Assembly: GCF_001647675.1 (NCBI RefSeq)
Contig: NZ_CP015594.1
Span: forward strand, 62,001 to 126,000
DNA length: 64,000 nucleotides
Direction of reading: 5' to 3'
DNA from: Acinetobacter sp. NCu2D-2
GTDB lineage: Bacteria > Pseudomonadota > Gammaproteobacteria > Pseudomonadales > Moraxellaceae
How positions within the stretch are numbered: position 1 is the first letter of the stretch; each line of letters opens with the position of its first letter. The position numbers and the translations under genes are program-made. Shown piece by piece: positions 29,019-52,012 of the stretch. The notes under the pieces were generated by a model, which saw nothing but the letters and a program-made list of their open reading frames with translations, was not told where the DNA came from and searched no databases.

Positions 29019-29593
29019 TTGCTCTCCCTCCATTAAAAGGGTTCTACACACTCTCTTGTGATGAGAGACCATAAGGACGTCAGCCCGCTTTCGCGTGGGG
29101 TAATGTTTCAACCTCTATCCAACCCATTACAGACTGGCATTCGCTTTTTCCTCGTTCCTTCGCCCGCATCACCATGGGCAGTTTTTGCAAACTGCTTTCC
29201 CAATGGGAGTAATACGGGATTTCCACGTTCCGCTTACTGAAGTACATCGGCTTAGGTGCCTGCTATCGACCGGGAGGCGTATGGGTCACGAATGCGTAGT
29301 CGAAAGACGCAATTCCCACCTCCATTACCGTTTTGGTTCGAGCGTATCAGCCATTTCCGCTCGTTCAACTTAACGATCGTTACGCAGATTCACATGTGTT
29401 CACCATACCGATTATCTAGCCCTTGTCCGGCTATGGCTGCCAGAAGGGTACGCCTCTCACGATTGATACCCCGCACCTTGCGGTGCCTCGTTACATTGTC
29501 GAAGGCGCTCTTTATTCAGCCTTCTAGATTCACCCGGTGACACGGGTGGTTCCCGCAGGGGGAACAACTTCATTAAGCGACTTCGTGTCGCAC

Positions 29594-30973: not shown

Positions 30974-31047
30974 GACCGCAGTATGCCTGAGGTCATGAGA
31001 AGAATGAAATAGAACGTTTGGAGGATGGCAGAATGGTCGAGCCTGGT

Positions 31048-31383
31048 TTAGAGCATTGTGACCACCTGCTGTCGTCCAATGCGCTGCCAGGGCAAACCCT
31101 GGATCAGTGCCTGTAACTGTTCCGGGCTGAGAGCTACGCTTTCACCCTGGTGAACTTTAGCCCAGTGAAATTTGCCCTGTTCCAGCCGCCGGGCACACAG
31201 CCAGATGCCCAGTCCATCATGCACCAGTACTTTCATACGATGGCCACGTTTATTACAGAACAGGTAGGCGCAATGCGGTTTGATCGAGCCAAAGGCTTTC
31301 ATGATCTGCGCCATAGCCGTATCCATACCCGCACGCATGTCCATCGGCTGGGTAGAGAGCCAAATTTCATTGATACGGATCAT
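31048..31383 (-). CDS. tnpB: IS66 accessory protein TnpB
   Basis: An IS66 Orf2 protein of 111 residues (MIRINEIWLSTQPMDMRAGMD..., YLFCNKRGHRMKVLVHDGLGIWL). It is needed for IS66 transposition with TnpA and TnpC. The start ATG at 31383 overlaps the tnpA stop (ATGA), so translation is coupled. Confidence 0.9.
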   Translation of the reverse strand: MIRINEIWLSTQPMDMRAGMDTAMAQIMKAFGSIKPHCAYLFCNKRGHRMKVLVHDGLGIWLCARRLEQGKFHWAKVHQGESVALSPEQLQALIQGLPWQRIGRQQVVTML

Positions 31384-31763
31384 GTTGCCAGTGCCTTGAG
31401 TAATTCTGCCAAGGCAGGTATTTCTGATGTCTGCCATTTTAGCTGAATATCATTATTCGTATGAGGCACGGTGATACACAACGTGATCCTCTCATCAATA
31501 GGTTGGCTGATTGCAGCAGTGTAAGGCAAAGCAATAAATGCTGGATTCACATGAGTAGGATCCTGCACGGCACCATCATGATGGCTGAGGATCCTGATCC
31601 AACGACTGACAAGGTTGGCATTAATACTATGTTGCAGTGCGACCGAAGCGATCGAGGTATTAGGATTTTTGCAGGCATTGACAATACTGAGTTTGAATTC
31701 TTTGCTGTATGTTCTGCGTTTTTTAGCAATAGGAGGTGTTGCTGAATATATATCCATGTTCAT
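31380..31763 (-). CDS. tnpA: IS66 accessory protein TnpA
   Basis: A 127-residue protein with an N-terminal helix-turn-helix (KEFKLSIVNACKNPNTSIASVALQHSINANLVSRWIR), as in IS66 Orf1. ATG 31763 or 31757 may start it. First gene of the IS66 operon. Confidence 0.88.
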   Translation of the reverse strand: MNMDIYSATPPIAKKRRTYSKEFKLSIVNACKNPNTSIASVALQHSINANLVSRWIRILSHHDGAVQDPTHVNPAFIALPYTAAISQPIDERITLCITVPHTNNDIQLKWQTSEIPALAELLKALAT

Positions 31764-37220: not shown

Positions 37221-37337
37221 ATGGCGGTGCATAATATAGAAAAAACAGAATCATGCCAAGCTGAAACAATTGATTTGAAGAAAAAGTTTTAGTCTGGTGC
37301 TATGATCTGCAAAAATGCTTTAAAACGAAGACAATAT

Positions 37338-39218
37338 ATGCAAAGCACTGCACATAAAGCAGCTCTCCCAGTGGTAACACTTGCTGCGCTTGGGGTCGTT
37401 TTTGGTGACATTGGCACCAGCCCTCTCTACGCACTGCGACAATGTTTTCTTACCGCACATCTAGCGATTAGCGAAGCCTCAGTATTGGGAATTTTGTCAC
37501 TGATATTTTGGTGCATCATGCTTACCGTCAGTTTTAAGTATGTGACCATTATCATGCGTGCCGACAACAATGGTGAGGGCGGAATCATGTCTTTATTGGC
37601 ATTGAATCTGCGGACGACCTTAATTTCGGATGATAAAAAGATCTATCTGATTGCCCTTGGTTTTGTCGGCGCTTCACTATTTTTTGGTGATGGCATCATT
37701 ACGCCTGCGATCTCCATTCTGTCTGCCATTGAAGGTCTGAGTATTGCAACGCCTGTTTTTAATGACTGGCTTATGCCTTTATCAATCGGGATCTTGGCGG
37801 GGTTATTCTTTATTCAGCGTCACGGTACAGCGACGATGGGTAAGTTCTTTGGTCCATTAACACTGACTTGGTTTTTATCTATAGGTGGTTTTGGTTTGTG
37901 GAGTATTCTGCAAACGCCTGAAGTCTTGGCGATGGTCAATCCTTATTGGGCTTTCCATTTTGTCTTTGATCAGCCTTATGTGGCGTTTCTAACTATGGGC
38001 GCAGTTATTCTCACGATGACGGGTGGTGAAGCGATCTATGCCGATATGGGGCATTTTGGACGTCTTCCGATTCGATTGGCATGGTTCATTATTGTATTAC
38101 CTTGTTTACTCCTGAACTATGCAGGGCAAGGGGCTTTACTGCTTCGTGATGCCAATGCCCTGACCAATCCATTCTATATGCTGATTCCGAATTGGGCGTT
38201 GTATCCAATGATTGGTTTAGCGACAGCAGCAGCGGTCATTGCTTCACAGGCGGTCATTACTGGCGTTTTTTCAATGGTCAATCAAGCGATTCAATTACGC
38301 TATTTACCACGCTTAACCGTACGACATACTTCTGCAGTTGAACGTGGACAGATTTATTTGCCATTTATTAATTGGATGCTGTTTATCTCAGTCGTGATTC
38401 TGATTGCACTGTTTGAAAATAGTGCCAATCTAGCCAGTGCTTATGGCGTGGCGGTCACTATGACCATGCTTTGTGGAACGATTCTGATTTCGATATTGGC
38501 CTATGGTTTTTGGCGCTGGCCAATTTGGAAAGTATTGTTATTCGCGACACCATTTTTAATCCTCGATTTTATTTTCGTGGCATCGACGTCATTGAAAATT
38601 ATTTCAGGGGGATGGGTGCCAATCATGCTTGGAGCAGTCCTGTTTACAGTATTGATGACATGGAAAGATGGTCGTGCATTGGTGCTGAAACGTATGGAAC
38701 AAGATGCGCTGCCAATCGAGTTGTTTATTAAAAGTGTGTCGATGGGTGGTGGAACCAAATTTGTTCCGGGAGATGCGATTTTCCTGACTGGAACGCCGAA
38801 TATTGTGCCACATGCTATGTTGCATAATATTAAGCATAACAAAGTTTTACATGAACGTAATATTATGGTTACGGTAGTGACGCGTGATATTCCTTTTGTG
38901 CCTGCCGATGAACGAGTTAAAGTCGAAAAGCTGGATCAACACTTTTATCGGATCTATATGTATTTTGGCTTTAAAGATCAGCCCAATATTCCTCAAGCTA
39001 TGCAACAGGCCTATGCTGAATGGGACTTTGAATACGATTTAATGCAAATGAGTTTCTTTATTTCGCGTGATCGTATTATTCATACAGTTGGAGATGGCAT
39101 GGCGCCTTGGCGTGAAAAACTGTTTATTTCCATGCAACGCAATACCAGTCCTGTGAGCGATTTTTACCAAATTCCGACCAACCGTGTTGTTGAATTGGGT
39201 AGCCAGATCGAAATCTAA
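37338..39218 (+). CDS. kup: Low-affinity potassium:proton symporter Kup
   Basis: A 626-residue Kup/HAK/KT transporter. The N-terminus shows the signature [18 protein letters not shown], followed by 12 membrane helices ([17 protein letters not shown] is another family motif) and a cytoplasmic C-terminal domain. It imports potassium. I chose ATG 37338 ([11 protein letters not shown]); the frame extends to 37302, overlapping the likely promoter. A terminator follows at 39241. Confidence 0.93.
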
Positions 39219-39475: not shown

Positions 39476-39997
39476 ATGGCAAAGAAGCAACGGAATTCAA
39501 AAAATTTAATTACTCAGTTTTTAAATGAAAATACGGTAAAAATCATTCTTGGCGTGGTCGCTTCAGGGAGTTTTGCAATTGCTTTTGGGCAAGAAAAAAT
39601 TAGCCAATTGGTTTCGCTATCTTCAGGGTCTAATACAGCATGTCTAGATCAGTTTTATCGTGATGTTCCGCCTTATTTAGTAAAAGAAAGTCTGAAAAAA
39701 GACAGCTATTCACTGTGTTTTAATGGCTTTAATGTGGCTTATTCAGGTGTTTCAAAGACACCATTATGGGTGGCAGAGCTGTTAACGCCGTCGCGCTTAA
39801 GTCAAAAAATTCCGCGTGAAGATAATTTCCATGAGGAAGAGAGAGTTAAATCTGCACATCGTGCAACTTTAGCGGACTATCGTGCCTCAGGTTATGACCG
39901 TGGACATATGGCACCGAATGCAGATATGCCAACCAAAGCCGCACAGTTTGATAGTTTTTCGCTAGCCAACATGGTGCCGCAATTTCTGTCCATCTAA
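39476..39997 (+). pseudogene. Membrane-anchored DNA/RNA non-specific endonuclease, 5' part
   Basis: N-terminal part of a NUC1-family nuclease. A membrane helix (VKIILGVVASGSFAIAF, residues 21-37) anchors the domain outside the cytoplasm. The catalytic motif DRGHMAP is intact, with general-base H144. After residue 169 (NMVPQ) the native reading ends at base 39982 and four foreign codons lead to a stop. The missing part, starting APKNNQQVWRELE with the metal-binding Asn and the Glu, is found in frame at 50020. So the gene is split by about 10 kb and this half is inactive. Confidence 0.88.
39979..39982 (+). repeat. Left GCAA of a possible 4-bp target duplication
   Basis: GCAA occurs at both junctions of the 10-kb insertion (also 50016-50019). 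Removing one copy and everything between restores the nuclease frame exactly. Confidence 0.6.
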
Positions 39998-40096
39998 TCA
40001 TATCATATTTGGTATTAAGTATTTGTTTTTAAACAATTATAAAAATATGATAATCATATTTTTATATCATATAAATTTTTTATTAAGTGGATAATC

Positions 40097-41062
40097 GTGA
40101 AATTTAGTTTTTATTTAATCATATTTAGTATCTGCCTAAATAGTTCATTAGTGTTTGCTAAAGAAAATATTAGTGTTATAGATTATTCAGAAATTGCTAA
40201 GAAAAGACCGATAGAATTATATAGCAGTAAACAAAAACAAAATTCATTTGATGGTTGTTCTGATTTATTTCCTAAAAAAAATCCAAAAGAGACAACTGAG
40301 TTAACATATTTTAATAAAATGAAGTGGAGTATAAGGGAGTTATGTTCTGATAACTTTGCTGTAGTATATTCAGATCGCACTAAAACACCGCTTCTAGTTA
40401 TTGAAAAATTAAGTGCTAAACAAATTAAAAATAAAAGTGAAGGTTTGAAACGGACAGATTTCTTTTATTCTGATCCTAGAATACCTACTAAAGGTAGAGC
40501 AAAAGCATCTGATTATAAAAATGTTCGGCCTAGCGTTGATAGAGGACATCTAGTACCAGCTGGTAATTCAATTACGGCTCGGGGTATGGCTCAAACTTTT
40601 GCATTATCTAATATTTTTCCGCAAGATTCAGACAATAATAGAGGTCCATGGAAAAAAATTGAGACTGATGTTAGAAAATATATCTTAAGATCTGAAGGAG
40701 ATACTTATATTCTTTCTGGCATTATTTTCGATAAAAAAGAAAATTCAGTTAAGATCGGTAAAAATAGAGTTTGGAAACCATCTAGAATATTTAAATTAAT
40801 TTATAACCCTAGCGAAGATAAAGTTTGGGTATATCTCATTAAAAATGAATCTATAAAGATTGTACCTGAACCAATATCTTATGAAGAATTTGTTACTGAG
40901 ACAGGAATAAAATTTGGATTCATTAACAGTAATGGGTCTAGTTATAATTCATCTAGTCAGCCTGTTAAAGAACAAGATATATTCATTGAGAATATAAAAT
41001 CAAAATTTTTGGAATGGTTGCAGAACTTTCTGCAAAGTTTAATTGTTAAAATTCTTCATTAA
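40097..41062 (+). CDS. Exported DNA/RNA non-specific endonuclease
   Basis: A 321-residue NUC1-family nuclease with a signal peptide (FYLIIFSICLNSSLVFA). The catalytic residues are intact: DRGHLVPAGN with the His base, then NIFPQDSDNNRGPWKKIE, in which Asn and Glu are 8 residues apart as in Serratia nuclease. It should cut DNA and RNA in the periplasm or outside. The C-terminus ends in a hydrophobic amphipathic segment (FLEWLQNFLQSLIVKIL). Start GTG 40097. It is AT-rich and only distantly related to the split nuclease upstream. Confidence 0.88.
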   Translation: MKFSFYLIIFSICLNSSLVFAKENISVIDYSEIAKKRPIELYSSKQKQNSFDGCSDLFPKKNPKETTELTYFNKMKWSIRELCSDNFAVVYSDRTKTPLLVIEKLSAKQIKNKSEGLKRTDFFYSDPRIPTKGRAKASDYKNVRPSVDRGHLVPAGNSITARGMAQTFALSNIFPQDSDNNRGPWKKIETDVRKYILRSEGDTYILSGIIFDKKENSVKIGKNRVWKPSRIFKLIYNPSEDKVWVYLIKNESIKIVPEPISYEEFVTETGIKFGFINSNGSSYNSSSQPVKEQDIFIENIKSKFLEWLQNFLQSLIVKILH

Positions 41063-41109
41063 GAGATTATTTTAAATAATGTATATTTTTATTAATTAGT
41101 CGGATTGTT

Positions 41110-42075
41110 ATGCCAAAACATAAAAGTCAATATAAAACTGACTCTGGTTTTTTATCTGGAAATTTTATTAAAGTAGTTTTAGCAATTATAGCAATCAGTA
41201 GTTTTGGATTAGCTTTCTATTATGATCAGGTATCAACAACTTTGGTTAAGCTCTATCCAATAGGGGATAAAAAATGCTTAGAACAGTTTTACAAAAATGT
41301 TCCACCCTATTTAAATAAAGAGAGTTTGCAGAGAGATACTTATCCATTATGTTTTAATGGTTTTAATCTGATGTACTCAGGAGTATCAAAAACTCCACTT
41401 TGGGTAGCTGAGCGTTTAACTGTTCAACGATTAAGTCAAAATGTGCCTAGAGAAGTTAATTTTCATGAAGAGGAAAGGATTCCTCTTGATTATCGTTCTA
41501 AGCTTTCAGACTATCGTGGTTCTGGATATATTCGTTGGCGTTTAGCTCCAAATGCAGATATGCCAAATAAAACTGCTCAATTTGACAGTTTTTCATTGGC
41601 GAATATAGCACCAGTTGCAAATTTAGAAGTACTAACAAAAATAGAATATTTAATACGGGGTATTGCGATTAAGAAGAATCAAGATGTATATGTGGTTACT
41701 GGACCAGTATTTGCTACGAAAAAACTTAAAACGATAGGTAGGGGGGTCATTGTTCCAACAGCAACCTATAAAGCCATATATATGCCAAAAACAGGGGTTG
41801 CAGGTGTGTACTATGCCGAAAATACCCTGAAAAATACTGTTCCAAAAGTGCAGGTGATCAGTGTATGTGCGTTGGAAGATCTCACTGGAATTAATATTTT
41901 TCCTCAGTTAGAGGAAGATCAAAAAAGAAATACATATAGTCTTCCTTTAAGCCCAAATGACTTAGCATCAGATAAAGAAATTGAATATTCTTATTGGGAT
42001 GCCGAAAGTCAATGTGCAACTGATATTTCAGAAAAAGATATAAGCATGCTTCAGAAGAAGTTTAGCTTTGAATAA
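41110..42075 (+). CDS. Paralogue of the split nuclease lacking the DRGH catalytic motif
   Basis: A 321-residue protein aligned without gaps to the split nuclease over residues 1-165, including the membrane helix (FIKVVLAIIAISSFGLAF). At the catalytic motif the split gene has DRGHMAP but this one has IRWRLAP, so the general-base His is replaced by Arg. A three-residue deletion follows (QAP lost), though Asn and Glu can still be aligned. It is therefore probably catalytically dead, perhaps a decoy, inhibitor or decaying copy. The 3' third looks less AT-rich than the rest. No clear ribosome site. Confidence 0.85.
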   Translation: MPKHKSQYKTDSGFLSGNFIKVVLAIIAISSFGLAFYYDQVSTTLVKLYPIGDKKCLEQFYKNVPPYLNKESLQRDTYPLCFNGFNLMYSGVSKTPLWVAERLTVQRLSQNVPREVNFHEEERIPLDYRSKLSDYRGSGYIRWRLAPNADMPNKTAQFDSFSLANIAPVANLEVLTKIEYLIRGIAIKKNQDVYVVTGPVFATKKLKTIGRGVIVPTATYKAIYMPKTGVAGVYYAENTLKNTVPKVQVISVCALEDLTGINIFPQLEEDQKRNTYSLPLSPNDLASDKEIEYSYWDAESQCATDISEKDISMLQKKFSFE

Positions 42076-42112
42076 GTTGTTTATGATAATATCAACAAAG
42101 AAGGGCAGAGTA

Positions 42113-43181
42113 AAACTTGAAGTGCGACATAAACCACCTAATTAATTTAAAGGGTTTATGGAGTATATAAAATTGTCATACCATCATCTTAACTTTGAAG
42201 ATCGTACTGCATTAATGCTTGAGTCAAGAAAAGAAGGCTTTTCACCCAGAAAATTTGCTGAACTCATTAAAAGACATCCTAGTACGATCTATCGTGAGCT
42301 TAAAAGAAACAGCATCAATGACGTTTATCAAGCTCAATATGCTTCTGATAACACCTTCGCTAGACGTAGACATGGTCACAGAAAACTCAAAACCGATTCA
42401 ATCCTCTGGAAATTTATTGTTGAAGCGATCCGTTGTTTATGGTCTCCTCAGCAAATAGCAAAGCGTTTAAAGACATTTCCTGATTTGGATCAAACAATGA
42501 ATGTAAGCCATACAACGATTTATTCAACGATACGAGCATTACCAAAGGGTGAGTTGAAAAAAGACTTATTATCCTGTCTGCGTCATGAAAATAAAAAGCG
42601 AAAAGCTACCGGTGAACCTAAAAAAGATTCTATATTACAGGATATTAAAACTATTCATGAGCGCCCAGCCGAAGTTCAAGAAAGAAAAATACCGGGTCAT
42701 TGGGAAGCTGATTTAATTAAAGGTAAAGACAATAAAAGTTCGATAGCAACACTTATTGAACGAAATACACGGCTCTGTATCTTGGCAACATTACCTGATG
42801 CAAAGGCAGAATCAGTGCGCAAGGCTTTAACTGAAGCTCTGAAATATTTACCTGCAGAACTGCGTAAAACATTGACCTATGACCGTGGACGTGAGATGTC
42901 AGAACATAAAATCCTCGAAGAAGATTTAGGCATAGATGTATATTTCTGTGACCCACATTCGCCATGGCAGAAAGGCACATGCGAAAATATGAATGGTTTA
43001 ATTAGGCAATATTTACCTAAAGGGATTGATTTAAACCAGGCAGATCAGCATTATTTAAATCAAGTTGCCATGTCTCTGAATACTCGCCCTAGAAAAGCGT
43101 TAGATTGGCTTACACCATTAGAGAAATTTGCTCAGCTTGTTGATTATCATAAGGCTTTTGAAACTGTCGCACCTCATGTTT
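42113..43181 (+). mobile_element. IS30-family element
   Basis: Imperfect terminal repeats: AAACTTGAAGTGCGACA at the left, AAACATGAGGTGCGACA inverted at the right. It encodes one transposase and spans about 1.07 kb. I could not see a target duplication. The right end lies 81 bases before the next gene, so it could influence its expression. Confidence 0.8.
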
Positions 43182-43183
43182 GA
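42158..43183 (+). CDS. IS30-family transposase
   Basis: A 341-residue DDE transposase with an N-terminal helix-turn-helix (REGFSPRKFAELIKRHPSTIYRELKRN) and catalytic region residues in HWEADLIKGK, TYDRGREMSEH and CDPHSPWQKGTCENMNGLIRQYLPKG, all typical of IS30. The stop codon overlaps the right IS end. Intact. Confidence 0.93.
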   Translation: MEYIKLSYHHLNFEDRTALMLESRKEGFSPRKFAELIKRHPSTIYRELKRNSINDVYQAQYASDNTFARRRHGHRKLKTDSILWKFIVEAIRCLWSPQQIAKRLKTFPDLDQTMNVSHTTIYSTIRALPKGELKKDLLSCLRHENKKRKATGEPKKDSILQDIKTIHERPAEVQERKIPGHWEADLIKGKDNKSSIATLIERNTRLCILATLPDAKAESVRKALTEALKYLPAELRKTLTYDRGREMSEHKILEEDLGIDVYFCDPHSPWQKGTCENMNGLIRQYLPKGIDLNQADQHYLNQVAMSLNTRPRKALDWLTPLEKFAQLVDYHKAFETVAPHV

Positions 43184-43262
43184 ATTCGCCAAGTTATTCT
43201 AATTTTTGATGAAAAAACTTTATTTATTAATACAATATTTTTAATATTATTATTTCGGGTGC

Positions 43263-44597
43263 ATGATGCAAACTTGGGAAAATTGGTTAGATTCCAATAG
43301 GAAATTGATGCAGCACCCTGTAGATTTTGAAGAAAGATTTGTTATTGATATCCTTAAAAAAATTAATGGTTTAAAGCCAGAGGATGTTATTCCTCAATAT
43401 CATTTTACTGATTTTGATGGAGGTAATCGTTATATTGACTTTTGTATAAAAAATGCAGAAAAAGGGTATTTTTTATCAATCGAGCTTGATGGTCGTTTTA
43501 AATTTCAAAATGATCTATTGGAAAAAACTTTAGAAAGACAAAATGCATTAGTTGCTAATGTTGGTACTTTAGTACGTTATGCAAATACGACTTGGTTGAA
43601 TAATCCAAATAGAGTTATCAACGAAATTCAGACAATTTTATATAAGCAAAAAATTAAGCACATGAATGATGCAGAGTCTAGAAAACAGATACAAAAATCT
43701 CTAAGTGATTATCAAAAAGAATTACTGGAGGTAAAAGAACTTAGCATAAAAAATAATCATGAGCAGGAACTTAAAAAGTTAAACTCAGCAATTATGGCTT
43801 TAAAAGCACAAATGGCTGAGAAAAAAGAAGCTCCGAATGAGGTAGGAACTACTGATGAATTAAAAAATATTGCACAAATGATGAAAGGGCTTAGCCAACA
43901 GATTGATGAATTGAAGGCAAAGTCAAAAGAAGACATCAACCCAGAATCTAAACAAGATAAAGAGGTAAGTGCTACAAACCTACAATGGCCGGAACAAGTG
44001 CTTAATACTAGTCCTGAATTAATAGTTACATCAAATAAATCTGTTGGTATAAAGCATATCCATATGGCTTTATTAGGGCTCATAGTTATTTTTATAGTAG
44101 GTATAACTACATATATTTTGAAAAATGAAAAATCTTCAGATATTAAATATACTGATTCTAAAGATACAGTAAGCAAAATTGTGGACTCTGAACCTTCTTT
44201 TAATAAAATTTCTAATGAGTCTCCAGACATTGATCCTCTAGTGAATGATTCACCTCAAATTGAAGTGGAACAGGTTACTGCTCAGGAGCAGAATATTGAA
44301 TCACATACAGAAGACTCATCATTTATACATGCTAGCGACGCGTCAAAATATATTGGTGAATACAGGAAAGTTTGTGGACAGGTTGTACAAATAAAAGAAT
44401 TTTCAAAAGGCATATATTTAAATTTTGGTAATAATTATCCTAGACAAAATTTAACAGCTGTCGTTTGGTCAAGTGATATTTCTAATTTTGGAAATTTGAA
44501 TCAATATGTGGGTAATAGTATCTGTATTTCTGGTGAAATTACGTCATATAGAGGTACGCCACAGATTGAATTAAGCAGTTTAGAGCAAGTAAATTAA
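43263..44597 (+). CDS. PD-(D/E)XK-like protein with membrane segment and OB-like domain
   Basis: A 444-residue protein of unusual build. Residues 15-125 look like a Vsr/DUF559/DUF2726 nuclease fold: E24, the core YIDF (D59), IELDG (E74, D76) and a late LERQNALVANVGTLVRY. A coiled coil (about 130-220), a membrane helix (about 267-287) and an acidic linker follow. Residues 355-444 form an OB-like domain (CGQVVQIKEFSKGIYLNFG...YPRQNLTAVVW) homologous to the exported protein at 44911. The nuclease part would be cytoplasmic and the OB part periplasmic, or the reverse. Start 43263 or 43266. Confidence 0.75.
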   Translation: MMQTWENWLDSNRKLMQHPVDFEERFVIDILKKINGLKPEDVIPQYHFTDFDGGNRYIDFCIKNAEKGYFLSIELDGRFKFQNDLLEKTLERQNALVANVGTLVRYANTTWLNNPNRVINEIQTILYKQKIKHMNDAESRKQIQKSLSDYQKELLEVKELSIKNNHEQELKKLNSAIMALKAQMAEKKEAPNEVGTTDELKNIAQMMKGLSQQIDELKAKSKEDINPESKQDKEVSATNLQWPEQVLNTSPELIVTSNKSVGIKHIHMALLGLIVIFIVGITTYILKNEKSSDIKYTDSKDTVSKIVDSEPSFNKISNESPDIDPLVNDSPQIEVEQVTAQEQNIESHTEDSSFIHASDASKYIGEYRKVCGQVVQIKEFSKGIYLNFGNNYPRQNLTAVVWSSDISNFGNLNQYVGNSICISGEITSYRGTPQIELSSLEQVN

Positions 44598-44601
44598 TAT
44601 T

Positions 44602-44906
44602 ATGGGTATCATCATAGGAATAGTAGGTTTTGTTTTTTTCTCCTCGTTTTAGAACAATATTTTAAAGATCAAGAGGAACGAGACAGGAAAAAAGCAGAAG
44701 ATGATGCTAAACGAAAATTAGAAGCACAAAGATTACATAGCTTAAAGTTGGAAAAAGACCGTATAGCTCTTGAGGTATATAAGTCAAAATTATTAAATAA
44801 AAGTAATTTAAAAAATATGGGACTTAATAAAGATCAAATTATACTATGGTATTTACTCATAATTATTGTTGCATTAGTAGTTTTTATAACTGTTTGGAAT
44901 ATTTAA
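44602..44906 (+). pseudogene. Small two-helix coiled-coil membrane protein, frameshifted
   Basis: ATG 44602 starts MGIIIGIVGFVFF, a membrane helix, but a stop occurs at 44650. One extra T in the seven-T run at 44633-44639 would join it to the downstream frame, which encodes a charged coiled coil (QEERDRKKAEDDAKRKLEAQ) and a second membrane helix (WYLLIIIVALVVFITVW), ending at 44906. The full protein would be about 101 residues. The defect could be mutation, phase variation by slippage or a sequencing error. It fills the gap between two OB-domain genes. Confidence 0.7.
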
Positions 44907-44910
44907 GGTC

Positions 44911-45288
44911 ATGAAGAAAATAATGTTCAAGAAATTTAGCATAAGTTTATTTTGTTTAAGTATGGTGTCCTCTGCATTTGCCGCAGAAGTGAAAGTAGAA
45001 GCTATAAAGGCTCCTTTTTATGTAGGTCAATCAGTCATGGCTTGCGGTAAATTAGTTGAAATAAAGCATTTATCTAATCGACATTATTTGAATCTGGATA
45101 GAAAATATCCAAACCAAACATTAACAATATTAGTATGGGATAATGATTACCGTTGGTTTGAAGAGCGCTTTGGTAAAATTGATGCAAAAATTGGGCAGAG
45201 ATTTTGTGGTCGAGGAACTATAGAGGAATATAAGAATAATATGCAAATGCAAATTAAGAACCCGCAGTTTCTAAGATTGATGAAGTAA
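44911..45288 (+). CDS. Exported OB-like domain protein
   Basis: A 125-residue protein with a signal peptide (FSISLFCLSMVSSAFA) and one domain. Its core, CGKLVEIKHLSNRHYLNLD-KYPNQTLTILVW, matches the C-terminal domain of the 43263 protein (CGQVVQIKEFSKGIYLNFG-NYPRQNLTAVVW). OB-like domains of this sort often sit with exported nucleases and may bind nucleic acid. It starts 5 bases after the frameshifted gene and ends 6 bases before the thermonuclease gene, so the three look like one operon. Confidence 0.78.
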   Translation: MKKIMFKKFSISLFCLSMVSSAFAAEVKVEAIKAPFYVGQSVMACGKLVEIKHLSNRHYLNLDRKYPNQTLTILVWDNDYRWFEERFGKIDAKIGQRFCGRGTIEEYKNNMQMQIKNPQFLRLMK

Positions 45289-45293
45289 TACAT

Positions 45294-45845
45294 TTGAAAT
45301 TCTTAATAAGTTTAAATAAATTAATGACTTGCAGTTTAGTATTGTTTCTAAATCTAAATTGCATTTCTTCTATCTATGCTAATAATCCTCGCTATTCTTC
45401 AGCAGGTATCGTAATTAGTAATATTTTATATGTTGTTGATGGAGATACCATCCATATAAAAGATAAAGATGAATGGAAAAAAATTCGTTTACAAGGAATT
45501 GATGCACCAGAGAAAGACCAAGCATTTGGTAAAGAGAGCATGCGTGTTTTAGCTAACTGTTTGTATAAAGCTAAAAAAATTCGTATTGAATGGACTGAAA
45601 AAGACAAATATGGAAGGTTACTTGGAAAAGTTTTAGTAGATGAAACAGACTGTAATTTGTCTCAAATAAAACAAGGTTATGCTTGGCACTATAAATTTTA
45701 TCAAAAAGATCAGACAGATCGTGATCGTCAATTGTACTCTAATGCAGAAATAGAAAGTCGTAAATCTGAAATAGGATTATGGAAAGAAAAATGTCCCACT
45801 CCTCCATGGGGCTGGCGGAGAAATAATATTTTAAAATGTTCTTAA
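45294..45845 (+). CDS. Exported thermonuclease (SNase family)
   Basis: A staphylococcal-nuclease-like protein, 183 residues from TTG 45294 or 173 from ATG 45324. A signal peptide is followed by the family motifs VVDGDTIHIK, RLQGIDAPEKDQAFG and EKDKYGRLLGKVLV, which supply the calcium ligands and catalytic Arg/Glu. It should degrade DNA and RNA outside the cytoplasm. It follows the OB-like protein gene by 6 bases. Neither start has a strong ribosome site. Confidence 0.88.
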   Translation: MKFLISLNKLMTCSLVLFLNLNCISSIYANNPRYSSAGIVISNILYVVDGDTIHIKDKDEWKKIRLQGIDAPEKDQAFGKESMRVLANCLYKAKKIRIEWTEKDKYGRLLGKVLVDETDCNLSQIKQGYAWHYKFYQKDQTDRDRQLYSNAEIESRKSEIGLWKEKCPTPPWGWRRNNILKCS

Positions 45846-45866
45846 GTATTTGAAAAAAATAGAATA

Positions 45867-46073
45867 TTATGGCAATAAATCTTTAGGGTTTATATCGATT
45901 GACTTAGCAATTATATAAAGTTTTAAGACAGTTAAATTGACTTCCCCTCTTTCGATACGTCCTAAATAACTTCTATCTATCCCAGTCAGTAATGCCAAAT
46001 GCTCTTGGCTAATTTTTTTAATCTCACGATTTTTGCGTATTAACTTTCCAATATCTTTAGCTAACTCTTTCAT
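45867..46073 (-). CDS. XRE-family helix-turn-helix regulator
   Basis: A 68-residue repressor-like protein, almost entirely a Cro/C1 helix-turn-helix (IRKNREIKKISQEHLALLTGIDRSYLGRIERG). It converges on the thermonuclease gene and is divergent from the broken gene at 46163, as phage- or island-type repressors often are. Confidence 0.85.
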   Translation of the reverse strand: MKELAKDIGKLIRKNREIKKISQEHLALLTGIDRSYLGRIERGEVNLTVLKLYIIAKSIDINPKDLLP

Positions 46074-46317
46074 TCAGATAGATCAGTAAAAAATAGAACT
46101 ATTAATTTTTGATGTTTATAAGTCCACGGCTTATAATCCTCATTTTGATTTTGGATTGCTAGATGTCTAAGAGAGTATTGCCATTCTATAATCGTTTTTT
46201 TGATCTTTTTGAGAGGCTTGTAATTGAACAATGGGAGGCTAAGACTTTTATTAACAATGTTTTATCAGAAGATCTTATCAATGATGAAAATAAGAAAAAA
46301 ATTTATAAAGGAATTAG

Positions 46318-47173
46318 GGTCTGTTGACATTTGTTGCTTAAAAAAATAGCGAGGTAGTAAAATTAAATCGCCAAACCCAATTTTACTCTCGCTATGCCTC
46401 GTACAATGCTGAATGATCAACACTGGTCTAAGTTACTTTCTATTTTCCGAAATTTTGATATCTATTTCAAATCTAATTTGAGAAATTTTGTCGAAGCCAT
46501 ACTTTATAGAATAAGAACAGGCTGTCCTTGGCGTGATTTGCCTAAAGAATTTGGTTCGTATAACTCAATATTTAAAAAATATAATCGTTGGTGTAAAAAT
46601 GATAAGCTAATGAAAGTATTTAAATTAATTTCTTCAAATGCTGATATGGAATGGGTTTTTATTGACGGTAGTCATGTTCGGGCACACCAACATTCTGCTG
46701 GAATAAAAGATCAGGATATTTCTAAAAGCATTGGTGGAAATAGTTCTAAAATACACTTAGCTGTTGATGCAGATGGCAATCCAATTGAAATTATTATCTC
46801 CGATGGAACGACGCATGACGTCAAGATTGCTCCAAAAATGATTGAAAAACTGGATTTGAGTGAAACGGAAGTATGTTGTGCAGACAAGGGATATGACTCT
46901 GAATCATTAAGGGAACAAATATCTGCGAAAAAAACTAAAGCTAATATTCCAAGAAAATCAAATACACAGTCAAATAATGACCATATGGATTGGTATTTAT
47001 ATAAAATCAGGCACTTAGTTGAGAATGCATTTTGTAGGTTAAAGCAGTTCAGAGGAATAGCAACACGATATGATAAGCTAAAGTGTAGCTATGAGGGTGC
47101 AGTTGCATTAGCTTGTGTATTTATTTGGCTACCTTTATCGGGTAAATTCTATACTTGAAATGTCAACAGACCC
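46318..47173 (+). mobile_element. IS5-family element, IS427-like group
   Basis: Perfect terminal inverted repeats GGGTCTGTTGACATTT. TA is duplicated at both sides (46316-46317 and 47174-47175). 856 bp, one transposase. It interrupts the hypothetical gene at 46163. Confidence 0.88.
46394..47158 (+). CDS. IS5-family transposase
   Basis: A 254-residue transposase in a single frame: RTGCPWRDLPKEFGSYNSIFKKYNRW, then FIDGSHVRAHQHSAG (first Asp), CCADKGYDSESLRE (second Asp) and HLVENAFCRLKQFRGIATRYDK (Glu). Intact. Confidence 0.92.
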   Translation: MPRTMLNDQHWSKLLSIFRNFDIYFKSNLRNFVEAILYRIRTGCPWRDLPKEFGSYNSIFKKYNRWCKNDKLMKVFKLISSNADMEWVFIDGSHVRAHQHSAGIKDQDISKSIGGNSSKIHLAVDADGNPIEIIISDGTTHDVKIAPKMIEKLDLSETEVCCADKGYDSESLREQISAKKTKANIPRKSNTQSNNDHMDWYLYKIRHLVENAFCRLKQFRGIATRYDKLKCSYEGAVALACVFIWLPLSGKFYT

Positions 47174-47585
47174 TAATGTTCTTTATAAATGTGGTTATTT
47201 AACACGTAAGAAAAATCCCAAAAACAGTAAAGTGTTTTTGTACACAGAGGCACAACCAATTGTGGATTATAGAGCGAAAAAAATTAACGAAAAGATTGAA
47301 AAAGTATTAAAAGAAAAAATGAATACTATCTCAGACAGTTTAAATACAAAAAGCAAAGAAGCTGTGTTCATTAGTGAATTAAAGGTAGAGTATCCAGAAA
47401 TAGCTTGCCAAATTGACGTTATTCAACAAGAACATCTTCAAATTTTGAATGATTTAAGCACCAAAAAAAATGTCATAAAAAACTTATGCAATATTTTAAT
47501 ATAAGTGAATTCTAATATGGAAATAATTTAAAATTGATCAGATAAATCTTCAATTTTCCTATTAAAAAACATTAGGATTCTGATC

Positions 47586-48437
47586 CTAGACAGTATCGTG
47601 GACAACAAATCCCTCTAAATTCTTAAAATATTTCTGTTCAAAGGCTTCTGGGCTTAACCAGCCGTTTGCGGAATGCCTTCTGACCCGATTGTAATAAATC
47701 TCAATATAGTCAAACAAGACTGTATTCGCTTCTTTTCGAGTGGCAAACACACTGCCATGGACCACATGACCTTTCAATGTATGAAAGAAGCTTTCGGTCA
47801 CTGCATTATCCCAACAGTTTCCCCTGCGTGACATACTTTGAACGCAGTTATTCGTCAATAATAGCGCCCTAAAATCACGACTACAGTACTGTGAGCCTTG
47901 GTCCGAATGCACCATGACACCCATTGGATACCCCTGACGAGCCATTGCATAATGAAACGCATCATACACCAATTGACGGTCTATTCGATGGCTGGTTTGC
48001 CAACCGACAATACGACGGCTGAATAGATCCAGCATCACACACAAATACAGCCAACCTTGCTTAGTACGGATATAGGTAATATCCGTTGTCCAGATCTTAT
48101 TGGGTTCATTGACCGTAAATTGACGATCCAACAAGTTAGGCGCTGTAGGCAAACGATGGTTTGAATCAGTCGTATACTTGTATTTACGTGCAATCCTGCT
48201 ACGTAAACCAAGCTTTTTAAGCGTTCTTCCAACGGTTCGTTCGCTCATGCTGTAACCTAAATCATGCATGTCATGTACCAATGAAGGTGCACCCAATCGT
48301 GCATGATGCTGCCAATATACGGCTTTTAAATCATTATATTTCTGCGCTGGATTGGCCTGGCGTTTTCGCCAGGCATAATAGCCTGAAGTGCTGACACCCA
48401 GGCATTGACAGGCAGAAGATACAGTGACTTCATTCAC
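47586..48437 (-). CDS. IS3-family transposase, OrfB part
   Basis: A DDE integrase-core protein (283 residues): WTTDITYI, HSDQGSQYCS and the late Glu in NCWDNAVTESFFHTLKGHV. It is normally made as a fusion with OrfA by a -1 frameshift; the -1 frame is open from the slippery site at 48499-48506 into this frame. Confidence 0.9.
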   Translation of the reverse strand: MNEVTVSSACQCLGVSTSGYYAWRKRQANPAQKYNDLKAVYWQHHARLGAPSLVHDMHDLGYSMSERTVGRTLKKLGLRSRIARKYKYTTDSNHRLPTAPNLLDRQFTVNEPNKIWTTDITYIRTKQGWLYLCVMLDLFSRRIVGWQTSHRIDRQLVYDAFHYAMARQGYPMGVMVHSDQGSQYCSRDFRALLLTNNCVQSMSRRGNCWDNAVTESFFHTLKGHVVHGSVFATRKEANTVLFDYIEIYYNRVRRHSANGWLSPEAFEQKYFKNLEGFVVHDTV

Positions 48438-48451
48438 ATCCAGATCTTGAA

Positions 48452-48745
48452 TTACCGTGTACTTTTCTTGGCATGATCTGTCAGAAAGTACACATGCGCT
48501 TTTTTTAAGATGTCATTGGCTTCCCTGAGCTGTTTGACTTCTTTCTCTAATTCTAAGATCCGCTGTTGTTCTGGTGAAAGTTGACGTTTGCTTGAACCTA
48601 CTGGATTGGCTTCACGAATCCATTTGTCTAAAGTTGAATAACCCACACCTAATTTCTGGGCGATTGCAGCTATAGGTTCGTGGGAGTTTGAAAGTGCATA
48701 ATCAATCGCTTGCTGTTTAAATTCAGGACTAAAACGTTTAGCCAT
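48452..48745 (-). CDS. IS3-family transposase, OrfA part
   Basis: A helix-turn-helix protein of 97 residues (MAKRFSPEFKQQAIDYALSN... VGYSTLDKWIREAN) with a leucine-zipper-like tail (LELEKEVKQLREANDILKK). I chose ATG 48745. A slippery A7-G run (minus strand 48506-48499) lies near its 3' end. Confidence 0.88.
   Translation of the reverse strand: MAKRFSPEFKQQAIDYALSNSHEPIAAIAQKLGVGYSTLDKWIREANPVGSSKRQLSPEQQRILELEKEVKQLREANDILKKAHVYFLTDHAKKSTR
48499..48506 (-). promoter_or_regulatory. Programmed -1 frameshift site of the IS3 element
   Basis: Minus strand AAAAAAAG. Shifting by -1 here continues as KKSACVLSDRSC... into the OrfB frame without a stop. Confidence 0.65.
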
Positions 48746-48819
48746 TTCTTGAATCTCCAAAGATTAAAGTTACGTTATCTTTAGAGGGACGTGCTGTCCA
48801 TTATTTTGGCTAGGATCAG

Positions 48820-48875
48820 TATTTCATCCGCAGATTATGCATGAATATTTAAAATTCTTCGGTACAAATAATCAG
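48820..48875. other. 56-base fragment between two IS elements
   Basis: The stretch is open in one plus-strand frame (FHPQIMHEYLKFFGTNN). It may be a piece of a lost gene; nothing more can be said. Confidence 0.3.
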
Positions 48876-49914
48876 GGCTTTGTTGCACAAACCTATCTGT
48901 AAAGGCTTTTTCAGCGATATAATTTCCAAATGAATAAGCCTACACAGAAAATCTACCGCACAACCAATTGGCCCGCATATAACCGAGCACTCATGAGTCG
49001 CGGAAATATTGCCATTTGGTTTGATCCTGCTACGCAATGGTATGCGCCATCAAAAGGCAAACAAGGGCGAAATCAAACCTACTCCGACGCAGCCATCCAA
49101 TGCTGCTTAATGATTAAATCCTTATTCCGTCTATCTTTACGTATGGTCACTGGCTTTGTGCAAAGTCTGATTAAACTTTGCGGATTAAATTGGACCGCAC
49201 CAGATTACAGTACGCTTTGTAGAAGACAAAAGCATATTGATATTGCAATCAGCTACCAAAAAAGTAGCGATGGGCTGCATCTACTCGTAGACTCTACAGG
49301 CATGAAGTTTCTAGGTGAGGGCGAATGGAAACGCAAGAAACATGGAGCTGAATATCGTCGCCAATGGCGTAAACTACATATTGGTATAGATGCCAAAATC
49401 CTACAAATACGCGCTATTCAGCTCACAACCAATAATGTCAGTGATTCACAGGTGCTTGGTGATTTACTTAATCAGATTCCACAAGATGAGCAGATTGACT
49501 CTGTTTATACCGATGGAGCTTATGACACCAAGCAATGCCGTCAGGTTATTGCAGATCGGCAAGCACATGCGGTGATTCCACCTAGAAAAAATGCGAAACC
49601 ATGGAAAGATACAAAAAGTAGCTCGCTAGAGCGAAATGAATTACTTCGAACAGTTAAACGTTTAGGCAGGACATTATGGAAAAAATGGTCAGGCTATCAT
49701 CGCCGCAGTTTGGTGGAAACCAAGATGCATTGCATCAAATTATTAGGCGATAAATTAATGGCAAGAAGCTTTCCTAGTCAGGTGAATGAAATTCATGCAC
49801 GTGTAGCAGTCCTCAACAGATTTACGGAATTAGGTCGACCACTTACCCAAGTTACGCCTTAAATTTGGCTCAATTAGGGGCGCTTTGCATTTCAAATCTT
49901 TGTGCAACAAAGCC
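48876..49914 (+). mobile_element. IS5-family element, IS903-like group
   Basis: Perfect 16-bp inverted repeats GGCTTTGTTGCACAAA at both ends and one transposase; 1039 bp. The 9-base flanks (AATAATCAG and TATCAAAAG) differ, so there is no target duplication; later deletion or recombination is likely. Confidence 0.85.
48930..49862 (+). CDS. IS5-family transposase (IS903-like)
   Basis: A 310-residue DDE transposase: WFDPATQWYAPSKGKQGRN, LLVDSTGMKFLGEGEW (first Asp), VYTDGAYDTKQCR (second Asp) and RRSLVETKMHCIKLLGDKLMAR (Glu). Intact. Confidence 0.92.
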   Translation: MNKPTQKIYRTTNWPAYNRALMSRGNIAIWFDPATQWYAPSKGKQGRNQTYSDAAIQCCLMIKSLFRLSLRMVTGFVQSLIKLCGLNWTAPDYSTLCRRQKHIDIAISYQKSSDGLHLLVDSTGMKFLGEGEWKRKKHGAEYRRQWRKLHIGIDAKILQIRAIQLTTNNVSDSQVLGDLLNQIPQDEQIDSVYTDGAYDTKQCRQVIADRQAHAVIPPRKNAKPWKDTKSSSLERNELLRTVKRLGRTLWKKWSGYHRRSLVETKMHCIKLLGDKLMARSFPSQVNEIHARVAVLNRFTELGRPLTQVTP

Positions 49915-50015
49915 TATCAAAAGCATAACAGAGCTTTTAAATATTTTGTCTATTTTTTATTCAGTTTGTTATTGTTATTTTGTTTAAATATGATACTGAA
50001 TGTAGTACACAGAAC

Positions 50016-50019
50016 GCAA
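50016..50019 (+). repeat. Right GCAA of a possible 4-bp target duplication
   Basis: Matches 39979-39982 and sits in the same codon context. Confidence 0.55.
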
Positions 50020-50193
50020 GCACCGAAAAATAATCAGCAGGTATGGCGTGAGCTTGAAGAAGCGACTCGTGCCATTGTGACCAAACAAAAATTAGATGTC
50101 TACGTTGTTACGGGTCCGATTTTTGCGGCTAAAAAATTAAAGACCATCGGTAAAGGCGTGATCGTACCGACCGCCACTTATAAAGCCATCTAT
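50016..50193 (+). pseudogene. DNA/RNA non-specific endonuclease, 3' part of the split gene
   Basis: The reading QAPKNNQQVWRELEEATRAIV...DVYVVTGPIFAAKKLKTIGKGVIVPTATYKAIY continues the nuclease fragment that ends at 39982. It contains the metal-binding Asn (30 residues after the catalytic His in the rejoined protein) and the Glu 8 residues later. It is cut again after KAIY by the IS200/IS605 element; the last third of the gene is not found to the right of that element. Confidence 0.85.
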
Positions 50194-50210
50194 CTTAAAG
50201 TGAAAGAGGA

Positions 50211-50250: not shown

Positions 50251-50649
50251 TTAACCTTGTTGGTTTTCAATGTATTTTTTAATAATATCCAAAGGTGCGC
50301 CACCACAAGACCCTGCAAAATATGAGCGTGACCACAAAACAGGTTTTGCATAACTACCACGTAAATCCAAAAACTCATTTCTCATTCTTCTGCTTGTTAC
50401 TGATTTTAAGTTATTTACCAATTTACTGAGTTGAACTGTCGGTGGATACTGAATAAGCATGTGAACATGGTCAGCTTCACCATTACATTCCTTTAATTCC
50501 GCATCAAACTCTTTGCGGATTTCAGATGCACACTCAATAAAATACTTATGATGCAACTCACCTAGAATTTTCTTTCTGTACTTAGTAATAAACACTAAAT
50601 GTACATGCAAATTAAAGGCTGAATGTCGGTTTTTATATATTTCTGTCAT
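50251..50649 (-). CDS. tnpA: IS200/IS605 transposase TnpA (HUH, Y1)
   Basis: A 132-residue Y1 transposase. The HUH motif is in GEADHVHMLIQ, and the catalytic Tyr is in the C-terminal helix IIKKYIENQQ. It cuts single-stranded DNA at the IS ends. Intact. Confidence 0.93.
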   Translation of the reverse strand: MTEIYKNRHSAFNLHVHLVFITKYRKKILGELHHKYFIECASEIRKEFDAELKECNGEADHVHMLIQYPPTVQLSKLVNNLKSVTSRRMRNEFLDLRGSYAKPVLWSRSYFAGSCGGAPLDIIKKYIENQQG

Positions 50650-50707
50650 TGGTGAATGGCTTAATTAGTGGTAGTATTTATACATATTAACATATACACA
50701 CTCATTT

Positions 50708-52012
50708 ATGAAAATCAACAAAGCGTACAAATTTAGGCTTGAGCCTAATGCAGAACAGGAGCTTGTTTTAAACAAGTTGCTTGGTTCTGCACGTTTTGTT
50801 TGGAATCAGATATTGGCTGCATCATTCGAGATGCTTGCTAATAATGAGCGAATTAACAAAGTTAATTTAGTTAATAAAATCCCTGAATTGCGCAAAAAGC
50901 CTGAGTGTGCTTTTTTAGAAAACAGTTCAAATGGTGTCTCACTTCAACAAAAAGTTCGTGATCTTGGTGATGCTTGGGGTAAATTCTTCGATAAAAAAGA
51001 ACAAGCCAAGCTAAAGCAAAAACCATTCAAAGCTAAGAAGCCAAAATTTTTTAAATTACCCGATGGTAATGAAATTCAACTTAGACCACTCATGCCACGA
51101 TTCAAGAAAAAATCAGATGGTTATGATTCAATTCGTATTGTTCAATTTAATAGGTATTGTTGGGTTAAAGGCAACCAAGTTAAATTGCCTAGTGATATTG
51201 GCGTTGTAAAATTTAGAAAATCACAAGATATTTTAGGCGAGATTAAGAACGCCACAATCTCAAAGCATGTTGGCAAGTGGTATATCTCTTTTGGTGTTGA
51301 AAACACAATTGAAACACCAATTCACCCATCTAAATCAGCTATTGGTGTTGATCTTGGCATCAAGAAATTGGTCACAACCTCTAATGGTCAGGTATTCAAC
51401 CCGATCAATAGTTTTAAAGCCAATCAAGTGAAATTAGCTAGACTTCAACGCAAGTTGAAAAAGAAAACCAAGTTCAGTGAAAATTGGAAAAAACTTAATT
51501 TAAAAGTTAATAAACTACATCATCATATTGCCAATATTCGGCATGACTACTTGCACAAAGTCACTACAACTCTCAGCAAAAACCACGCAATGATCGTAGT
51601 TGAGGACTTAAAAGTAGCTAATATGTCGAAGTCTGCAAAAGGCTCAATTGAGAAAAAAGGAAAGAATGTTAAAGCCAAATCAGGCTTAAACAAATCAATC
51701 CTAGATCAAGGGTGGTCAATGCTTGTTGATATGTTGGAGTATAAGCAACAATGGCGAGGTGGCTTACTTGTTAAAGTTGACCCTAAATATACAAGTCAGA
51801 CTTGTAGTTCATGTGGTCATGTTGCAAAAGAAAATAGGCTCACTCAGGCAAACTTTAACTGTATTGAGTGTGGTTTTAGCGAGAATGCGGATATAAATGC
51901 TTCTCGCAATATTTTGGCGGTGGGACACACCGTTTTGTCTGTGGAGGGTGGATGCGGTAAAGGTCGCCTTGTGAAGCAGAAAGCAAGCGAAATCCGTGAG
52001 GGAGTCGCCTAA
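50708..52012 (+). CDS. tnpB: RNA-guided nuclease TnpB
   Basis: A 434-residue TnpB. The split RuvC site is complete: D215 in IGVDLGIKK, E299 in IVVEDLKV and D395 in NADINASRN. The zinc finger is complete (C366/C369 in CSSCGH and C385/C388 in CIECGF), and an N-terminal WED-like domain begins NKAYKFRLEPNAEQE. It should cleave DNA with an omega RNA copied from the right end of the IS and the flank beyond it. Confidence 0.93.
   Translation: MKINKAYKFRLEPNAEQELVLNKLLGSARFVWNQILAASFEMLANNERINKVNLVNKIPELRKKPECAFLENSSNGVSLQQKVRDLGDAWGKFFDKKEQAKLKQKPFKAKKPKFFKLPDGNEIQLRPLMPRFKKKSDGYDSIRIVQFNRYCWVKGNQVKLPSDIGVVKFRKSQDILGEIKNATISKHVGKWYISFGVENTIETPIHPSKSAIGVDLGIKKLVTTSNGQVFNPINSFKANQVKLARLQRKLKKKTKFSENWKKLNLKVNKLHHHIANIRHDYLHKVTTTLSKNHAMIVVEDLKVANMSKSAKGSIEKKGKNVKAKSGLNKSILDQGWSMLVDMLEYKQQWRGGLLVKVDPKYTSQTCSSCGHVAKENRLTQANFNCIECGFSENADINASRNILAVGHTVLSVEGGCGKGRLVKQKASEIREGVA

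Follow-up and report, generated by a model that had tools for sequence, protein, structure and literature searches.

Why does Acinetobacter sp. NCu2D-2 encode, side by side, so many proteins expected to act on nucleic acids at the cell envelope? The question is raised by a 64,000-nucleotide stretch of its genome (contig NZ_CP015594.1, positions 62,001 to 126,000; hereafter the window, in whose own numbering window coordinates are given), where an initial annotation had pointed to a cluster of envelope-directed nucleases and OB-domain proteins at 39,476 to 45,845. We report that an insertion lies within the core NUC1 nuclease gene of this host and carries, among other genes, a module in which a predicted membrane-anchored nuclease with an OB domain adjoins an exported OB protein. 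The reading that we favour, with a probability of roughly 45%, is that a mobile island carrying envelope nucleases sits in the host's core nuclease gene, and that the module would work as an entry nuclease of the membrane with phage DNA as its chief target.

The insertion and its host gene

The features on which the argument depends are the following; G and L numbers used below are our handles for genomes and loci.

37302..39218, + strand: kup, potassium transporter (named by eye), landmark
39476..39982, + strand: 5' part of the core NUC1 gene, membrane-anchored, DRGH kept, interrupted (87% identity, core residues 1-143)
39978..39982: target-site duplication CGCAA, left copy
39983..50014: 10,032-bp insertion, with short inverted ends TTTCTGT.../...ACACAGAA, read by eye
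40097..41062, + strand: NUC1sec, signal peptide (by eye) and active-type NUC1 domain (DRGH)
41110..42075, + strand: pseudo-NUC1, N-terminal membrane anchor, NUC1 family, IRWR in place of DRGH, next segment shortened
43263..44597, + strand: membrane-anchored nuclease, with a Vsr/MTES_1575-type domain (residues 2-134), a coiled coil, a transmembrane (TM) segment (268-286) and a C-terminal OB domain with a Cys pair
44603..44906, + strand: remains of a coiled-coil membrane gene, frame broken (52-aa frame at 44748-44906)
44911..45288, + strand: exported OB protein with NPxxLRLM at the C-terminus and an invariant Cys pair; signal peptide recognised by eye
45294..45845, + strand: exported SNase/thermonuclease, variable module member
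50015..50019: target-site duplication CGCAA, right copy
50015..50196, + strand: core NUC1 gene continued, middle part with residues 143-202 (aligned at 50017-50196)

The core NUC1 profile matches 174 of the 175 genomes of the genus, with more than one match in 11 of them. The kup gene is found in the stretch at 27 of 29 NUC1 loci (L016-L044) and at 20 of 22 in a second set (L133-L154) sharing some genomes with the first, and the core protein encoded after it carries the DRGH motif and mostly an N-terminal anchor-like segment. Residues 1-143 of the relative in L048 map to 39554-39982 and residues 143-202 to 50017-50196, nothing being lost at the junction; core residues from 203 onward find no match within the window. 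CGCAA is common to both junctions, and among four uninterrupted core genes compared, the sequence at this place is CGCAA in two and differs by one base in the other two. Since the core gene resumes without loss and CGCAA stands at both junctions, 39983-50014 is an insertion, which evidently splits and inactivates the core envelope nuclease gene. Moreover, all four PF01223 matches of the 3.05-Mb genome fall in the window, and the host therefore seems to have lost a complete core NUC1 of its own.

All other genes of the cluster are carried by the insert, together with four insertion sequences (IS). No transposase could be tied to the outer ends of the insertion, those found inside belonging to the IS only. 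The cluster first described is thus real, but the relevant unit is larger, spanning 39978-50019; of the four IS in it, one, of IS30 type, separates pseudo-NUC1 from the nuclease-OB gene. The three NUC1-type envelope proteins that had been listed do match PF01223 (at 39476, 40097 and 41110), but 39476-39997 is part of a gene and 41110 is without DRGH, so that the idea of three working NUC1 nucleases is rejected. The coiled-coil membrane protein, taken at first to be intact, is reduced to a 52-aa frame versus 100-117 aa in six relatives (L045, L055-L057, L064, L067), whereas the proposed exported thermonuclease is borne out by the SNase domain encoded at 45294.

A predicted membrane nuclease paired with OB domains

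At the centre of the module stands the protein encoded at 43263. Its N-terminal part matches PF18741 (MTES_1575/Vsr-type) at E 2.7e-7 and 31 bits, under the Pfam cut-off of 38.2, and the same profile is precomputed for it in the protein-search listing. A protein search that scored the best 7999 candidates gave at least 104 relatives at E 0.001, 64 of them 98-100% identical to the query. Among the 32 sequences of the family alignment, PF18741 is matched by 22 (E 0.1 or better) and DUF559 by 18, and the nuclease-domain residues E23, D59, E74, D76, K80 and R105 are invariant. By analogy with DUF559, E23, D59, E74 and D76 may serve as the conserved acidic catalytic residues. The alignment gave 11 weak matches to PDB sequences, mostly over the coiled coil, and 3hrl ('Endonuclease-Like Protein') matched weakly (E 0.11) at model positions 92-131 of the nuclease domain.

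A TM-like segment is present in 30 of the 32 relatives, as judged by hydropathy with only the strongest segment taken and with the orientation predicted; the coiled coil between it and the nuclease domain is variable. The C-terminal OB domain reaches a Pfam E of 0.11 in the window protein itself and matches PF13742 in four of the 32 relatives (best 1.3e-4), and its Cys pair is nearly invariant. The exported protein at 44911 has no Pfam OB match itself, and seven of its 18 aligned copies match PF01336 (best 5.9e-5); a Cys pair and LRLM near the C-terminus are invariant in all 18. In addition, the fused and the exported OB domains match each other's profiles, and a search of PDB sequences with the exported protein gave no match. 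Taken together, these data give weak to moderate support to the OB assignment in both proteins. Two expectations of the initial annotation, a PD-(D/E)XK-like protein with a membrane helix and an OB domain at 43263 and an exported OB protein at 44911, accordingly agree with the profiles, on which the folds rest. PADLOC-DB 2.0.0 holds no clear model match for 43263 (best E 0.0071) and no match for 44911, and NCBIfam 20.0 gave no match over its cut-offs for any of eight cluster proteins.

Exported OB genes are also seen alone: in three genomes of the family they lie between ATP sulfurylase-like and cardiolipin synthase-like genes, named by eye (L124:7744-8127, L125:7702-8133 and L126:7878-8246), and a fourth lies among transposase genes (L123:7699-8070).

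Because the protein encoded at 43263 lacks a signal peptide and its TM segment is followed by a domain homologous to an exported protein, its nuclease should face the cytoplasm and its OB domain the periplasm, and with this topology contact with DNA would be possible only at the membrane. The Cys pair in both OB domains fits an oxidising periplasm. In the mechanism that we propose, a Vsr-type PD-(D/E)XK nuclease would be held on the cytoplasmic face by a coiled-coil stalk and one TM helix, with its OB domain in the periplasm, where the protein encoded at 44911 would supply a second, exported OB protein. These periplasmic OB domains, natural candidates for sensing DNA in transit, would bind DNA or the DNA-entry complex during envelope crossing; this contact would bring or switch on the cytoplasmic nuclease, which would cut DNA as it emerges, while membrane tethering would keep it off the chromosome. 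NUC1sec, pseudo-NUC1 and the SNase would be variable periplasmic additions.

The neighbourhood of the nuclease-OB gene was compared in 25 contexts, namely 22 named loci minus L075, which has no open reading frame (ORF) matching the nuclease profile, plus the window and three plasmid loci; several of them are closely related (L058/L059; L061/L062; L060/L074/L076). The hosts are named Acinetobacter, Psychrobacter, Vibrio, Ignatzschineria, Oligella, Alcaligenaceae, Succinivibrionaceae, Acetobacter, Rhodopila and Roseomonas. The exported OB gene lies beside the nuclease-OB gene in 21 of the 25. These include L072, where 1.4 kb separates the two and no OB match is found in the nuclease ORF, and L045/L054, where the OB frame has only 88 aa and the profile match contains a stop. 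No exported OB gene is present in L047/L069, in L078 or in either betaproteobacterial locus (L065, L066). The gene order is thus conserved elsewhere, and the refutation named in the initial annotation, an absence of such order in other genomes, did not hold; the pair recurs in gamma- and alphaproteobacteria, classes that we have in part presumed for the hosts.

A NUC1 gene stands beside the module in six of the 25 contexts (the window, L045/L054, L047/L069, L067, and the Vibrio and Roseomonas plasmids). The module lies between hsdS and hsdR in three others (L060, L074 and L076, the first two partly by eye), in A. colistiniresistens, Ca. A. avistercoris and an A. indicus plasmid. At L058/L059 the neighbours are a large helicase gene and one of HNH type (by eye); no evident defence neighbour was seen at L061, L062, L065 and L070, among others. 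In Acinetobacter sp. HY1485 (L047:8260-11321) the nuclease-OB gene sits between two active-type NUC1 genes, both on the opposite strand, and no exported OB gene is present. The SNase at 45294 matches the PADLOC SNc+LTD model C3a212 at 6e-14. It was not adopted as a regular member of the module, being found in two of the 25 contexts (the window and L045/L054), a count made with a profile built from those two proteins.

Within the genus the module is patchy, occurring in eight of 175 genomes, this one included, and four of the eight have it beside NUC1 (G000, G025, G050 and G143; the G025 contig ends inside NUC1, with kup out of view, and the arrangements in G025, G050 and G143 differ). The chance of four modules in eight falling beside the core NUC1 is about 2e-9 if insertions were independent, which they are not fully, and such a position is therefore not expected at random. 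Likewise, two or more NUC1 matches occur in five of the eight module genomes versus six of the 167 others (p 2e-5, or 2e-4 with G001/G202 merged, the species being non-independent). The link is not significant (p 0.16, G001/G202 merged) in module genomes where the two are not physically linked. Among 348 genomes of the family, 17 match the module, three of them by the OB protein only; in the sample of the class, one of 369 matches, again this genome.

Four viral contigs (L105-L108) carry a relative of the nuclease with a coiled coil and a TM segment and with no OB match. In the two inspected (L105, and L106 at 7971-9086) it follows a small exported protein and stands three ORFs before a terminase-like gene (by eye), and such a viral Vsr-type nuclease could be an accessory gene excluding other phages. 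No match to 43263 or 44911 was found among 50,697 phage records. The suggestion of a system that degrades DNA at the inner membrane is supported, on the level of sequence, by the predicted architecture, the patchy spread, the presence in type I restriction operons and the prophage-type relatives, although not all of the proteins first listed would be working nucleases.

Several observations weigh against an entry nuclease. Where the TM segment is clear, in 30 sequences, lysine and arginine counts favour a cytoplasmic N-terminus in only 21, and in the window protein they point the other way (2 vs 4); in the window, too, the third, coiled-coil gene has a broken frame. G025 has an internal stop in its OB frame, and in A. 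calcoaceticus JUb89 (L067:10224-11238) the nuclease-OB frame is split into two ORFs, with the exported OB and coiled-coil genes open. The three hsd contexts are close relatives, and in 16 of the 25 contexts the module has no NUC1 match near it and is not flanked by hsdS and hsdR. Finally, some exported OB genes have no nuclease next to them, three of these sharing their chromosomal neighbours; this suggests a function independent of the nuclease and, at L124-L126, a stand-alone one.

The inactive NUC1 protein and the alternative readings

A different target for the same proteins is conceivable, if somewhat unlikely: the element would protect itself against natural transformation, its nucleases destroying transforming DNA both in the periplasm and at the inner membrane and so preventing its removal by recombination with DNA from which it is absent, with phage defence secondary. 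A. baylyi is a classic competent relative, and the insert, with its target-site duplication, carries NUC1sec and the SNase. Secreted DNases of the Campylobacter elements CJIE1/2/4 and of the V. cholerae IdeA element lower transformation, according to a review (PMC4774983). However, what different hosts have in common is the pair of membrane nuclease and OB protein and not the secreted nucleases, the SNase being present in two of 25 contexts. In transformation only single strands reach the cytoplasm, the side that the nuclease domain should face, and the insert disrupts a NUC1 nuclease, which may itself raise transformation.

The protein encoded at 41110 bears on a further possibility. It scores 98 bits against PF01223 (cut-off 23), reads IRWR where the DRGH catalytic motif is expected, and is shortened in the following segment, which is PQAPKNNQ in active relatives; on these features it is a NUC1 homologue and not a working-type nuclease. 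Among the best 120 of its 376 relatives found, 107 keep DRGH and 13 do not. Of these 13, eleven read IRWR, one IRGR and one YRWH, and 12 share a three-residue deletion after the motif. One IRWR protein (P0105) is identical to that of the window and the ten others are 60-98% identical to it, identity falling to 56% over the whole inactive set and to 60% over the IRWR proteins. Decay of the gene was judged less likely given that IRWR is kept in those ten relatives, a conservation drawn from protein databases, which are biased toward open frames. The exact IRWR DNA pattern occurs in one of 348 family genomes, this one, and the close subfamily is consequently known here otherwise from protein-database matches.

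The tree of 49 rows, in which some long-branched rows may be misplaced, groups the 15 inactive proteins, the Roseomonas one excepted, inside the core clade with weak support (87/57), and puts NUC1sec in a separate, well-supported clade together with a protein that carries a Pseudomonas name. Seven of the 175 genus genomes were seen to have inactive paralogues (G000, G001, G012, G035, G126, G186 and G202), the genomes with a single match having been inspected in part. In G035 and G186, each with two NUC1 matches by profile that we take as the NUC1sec/inactive pair, the order is kup, NUC1sec (with DKGH for the DRGH of the window), inactive NUC1 and an aquaporin-like gene; in G001 and G126 kup is followed first by the inactive anchored NUC1 and then by an active-type NUC1 with a signal peptide. 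Active-type and inactive NUC1 genes therefore adjoin in five genomes, counting the window, and in these pairs the anchor-like segment belongs to the inactive protein and the signal peptide to the active-type one (by eye and hydropathy). The inactive proteins of the window, G035 and G186 are without the C-terminal tail that the partner keeps, while G001 and G126 differ. Both NUC1 copies of G050 are active-type, neither of them anchored-looking. The G186 inactive copy is shorter (310 aa) with one stop inside the profile match, and thus fits decay there.

It is a fair inference that anchoring and catalysis are divided between two NUC1 subunits. A bolder proposal, which we consider unlikely, holds that after a foreign secreted NUC1 arrived, the core nuclease was divided into a soluble active subunit and an anchored dead one (IRWR) that would hold, position or restrain it; with the Vsr-nuclease/OB module, this split enzyme would form a two-sided barrier that spreads by replacing the resident nuclease locus. 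Entering DNA would then be cut in the periplasm, and again on reaching the cytoplasm. In either case, the conserved pseudonuclease is a bacterial example, open to testing, in which a nuclease paralogue without activity is retained next to an active-type one; literature searches, as far as the retrieved parts of the sources go, brought up no NUC1 pseudonuclease. Two further observations concern this protein. The NUC1 gene adjoining the nuclease-OB gene on the Roseomonas plasmid (L078:9741-10811) reads DRGQ and is a possible further inactive member. Relatives of pseudo-NUC1 and of the nuclease-OB protein occur in metagenome contigs of equal length (8153, 5459 and 5624 bp) and on that basis may be linked.

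It is rather improbable that the genes have no joint function at all, the kup-NUC1 locus being an insertion hot spot that gathers unrelated genes and IS around a decaying pseudonuclease. The four IS inside, one broken frame and one partial gene would fit such a picture, as would the different arrangements beside NUC1 in G025, G050 and G143. On the other hand, the nuclease-OB gene keeps its exported-OB partner at sites distant from this one, the Vibrio and Roseomonas plasmids each have a NUC1 gene adjoining the module, the pair of NUC1sec and inactive NUC1 recurs after kup in G035 and G186, and IRWR is kept in 11 of 13 inactive proteins (among the best 120 of 376), ten of them besides the window's own.

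A role in nutrition or biofilms, with envelope nucleases degrading extracellular DNA and OB proteins acting as helpers that capture it, is highly improbable. NUC1 and SNase are typical secreted DNases, and the core profile is near-universal in the genus (174 of 175 genomes). Moreover, a DNA/RNA non-specific endonuclease of A. baylyi, ACIAD3408, which would be its core NUC1, has been detected as a protein (PMC6971185). The Vsr-type nuclease, in contrast, should not meet extracellular DNA because it has no signal peptide, and neither the patchy distribution (8 of 175 genomes) nor the type I restriction and prophage-type contexts favour this role.

Least probable of all is interbacterial competition with NUC1sec as an exported effector and pseudo-NUC1 as its immunity protein or chaperone, for although active-type and inactive homologues adjoin in five genomes, NUC1sec has a plain signal peptide, no delivery domain was found among ten proteins scanned, and the inactive partner, a homologue that bears an anchor itself, is no typical immunity protein.

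Remaining features and comparison with known systems

Besides the genes discussed above, the insertion and its flank hold the following features.

42158..43183, + strand: IS30-type transposase (family by eye), between pseudo-NUC1 and the nuclease-OB gene
45867..46073, - strand: small XRE-type helix-turn-helix (HTH) regulator (named by eye)
46313..47177, + strand: IS5-type element with perfect 20-bp inverted ends, transposase at 46394-47158
47586..48760, - strand: IS3-type transposase pair (named by eye)
48930..49862, + strand: IS4/IS5-type transposase (named by eye)
50251..52012: IS200/IS605-type TnpA (- strand) and TnpB (+ strand), at the truncated end of the core gene (by eye)

The IS5-type element apparently interrupts a small gene (46163-46327 and 47178-47504), with the HTH gene upstream on the opposite strand. 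Elsewhere in the window, an IS66-type element adjoins a reverse transcriptase gene of group II intron type (27357-31763; by eye), the GC content there, up to 52%, exceeding that of the surroundings, and a low-GC (~31%) gene resembling a KAP-type P-loop NTPase (16100-17857; by eye), possibly acquired, lies beside uvrA. An Rfam search found nothing but a tRNA.

With respect to known families, NUC1sec and the core gene share DRGH with the NUC1/DNA-RNA non-specific endonucleases. In being carried by a mobile insert, the locus is also like the DNases of mobile elements such as Dns of CJIE1, which we presume to belong to the NUC1 family; it is unlike them in that its active-type secreted NUC1 adjoins a conserved, anchored member that lacks the catalytic motif. 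The same idea, an active nuclease working with an inactive homologue, is found in pairs of the CPSF73/CPSF100 type. Those proteins, however, are eukaryotic and of an unrelated fold, and cooperation of the two NUC1 proteins is putative.

A second parallel is with genes, PrrC among them, that type I restriction loci carry between hsdS and hsdR. Three module loci occupy the same slot, but the predicted domains of the module differ from those of PrrC. By profile (22 of 32 relatives), the nuclease domain of the protein encoded at 43263 belongs with the Vsr/MTES_1575 and DUF559 restriction-endonuclease-like domains. In a conflict-system protein, MTES_1575 has been described as a nuclease domain of Vsr type, and fusions of MTES_1575/DUF559 to HEPN, helicase, transglutaminase and winged HTH domains are known; a fusion to a TM segment and an OB domain was not met in the portion of that article available to us (PMC3710099). 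Nor did the literature searches, within the retrieved parts of the sources, bring up such a nuclease-OB/exported-OB module.

The closest likeness in working, by analogy and not by family, is to SNIPE (PD-lambda-1), recently described (2026) as a membrane-bound nuclease that cleaves phage DNA during injection, a TM-DUF4041-GIY-YIG protein that is toxic without its TM segment (PMC13190303). Both would be single-pass inner-membrane nucleases with a catalytic domain expected in the cytoplasm, and in both tethering would spare the chromosome; a TM-like segment that would anchor the nuclease, the strongest by hydropathy, is found in 30 of the 32 aligned members of the 43263 family, with the orientation predicted. 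Membership in SNIPE itself was rejected, as the Pfam scan gave PF18741/DUF559 and neither GIY-YIG nor DUF4041. Whereas SNIPE has an N-terminal TM segment, DUF4041 and a GIY-YIG domain, the protein encoded at 43263 has an N-terminal Vsr-type nuclease, a TM segment after it, a predicted periplasmic OB domain and a second OB protein as partner. Since SNIPE cuts phage DNA at injection, such a membrane nuclease can work. If our reading is correct, the module, present in several proteobacterial groups and on plasmids with no clear match to PADLOC or NCBIfam models, would have reached a SNIPE-like position in the membrane by an unrelated design and, together with the pseudonuclease, would make the question of how cells recognise DNA in transit accessible to simple assays in A. 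baylyi.

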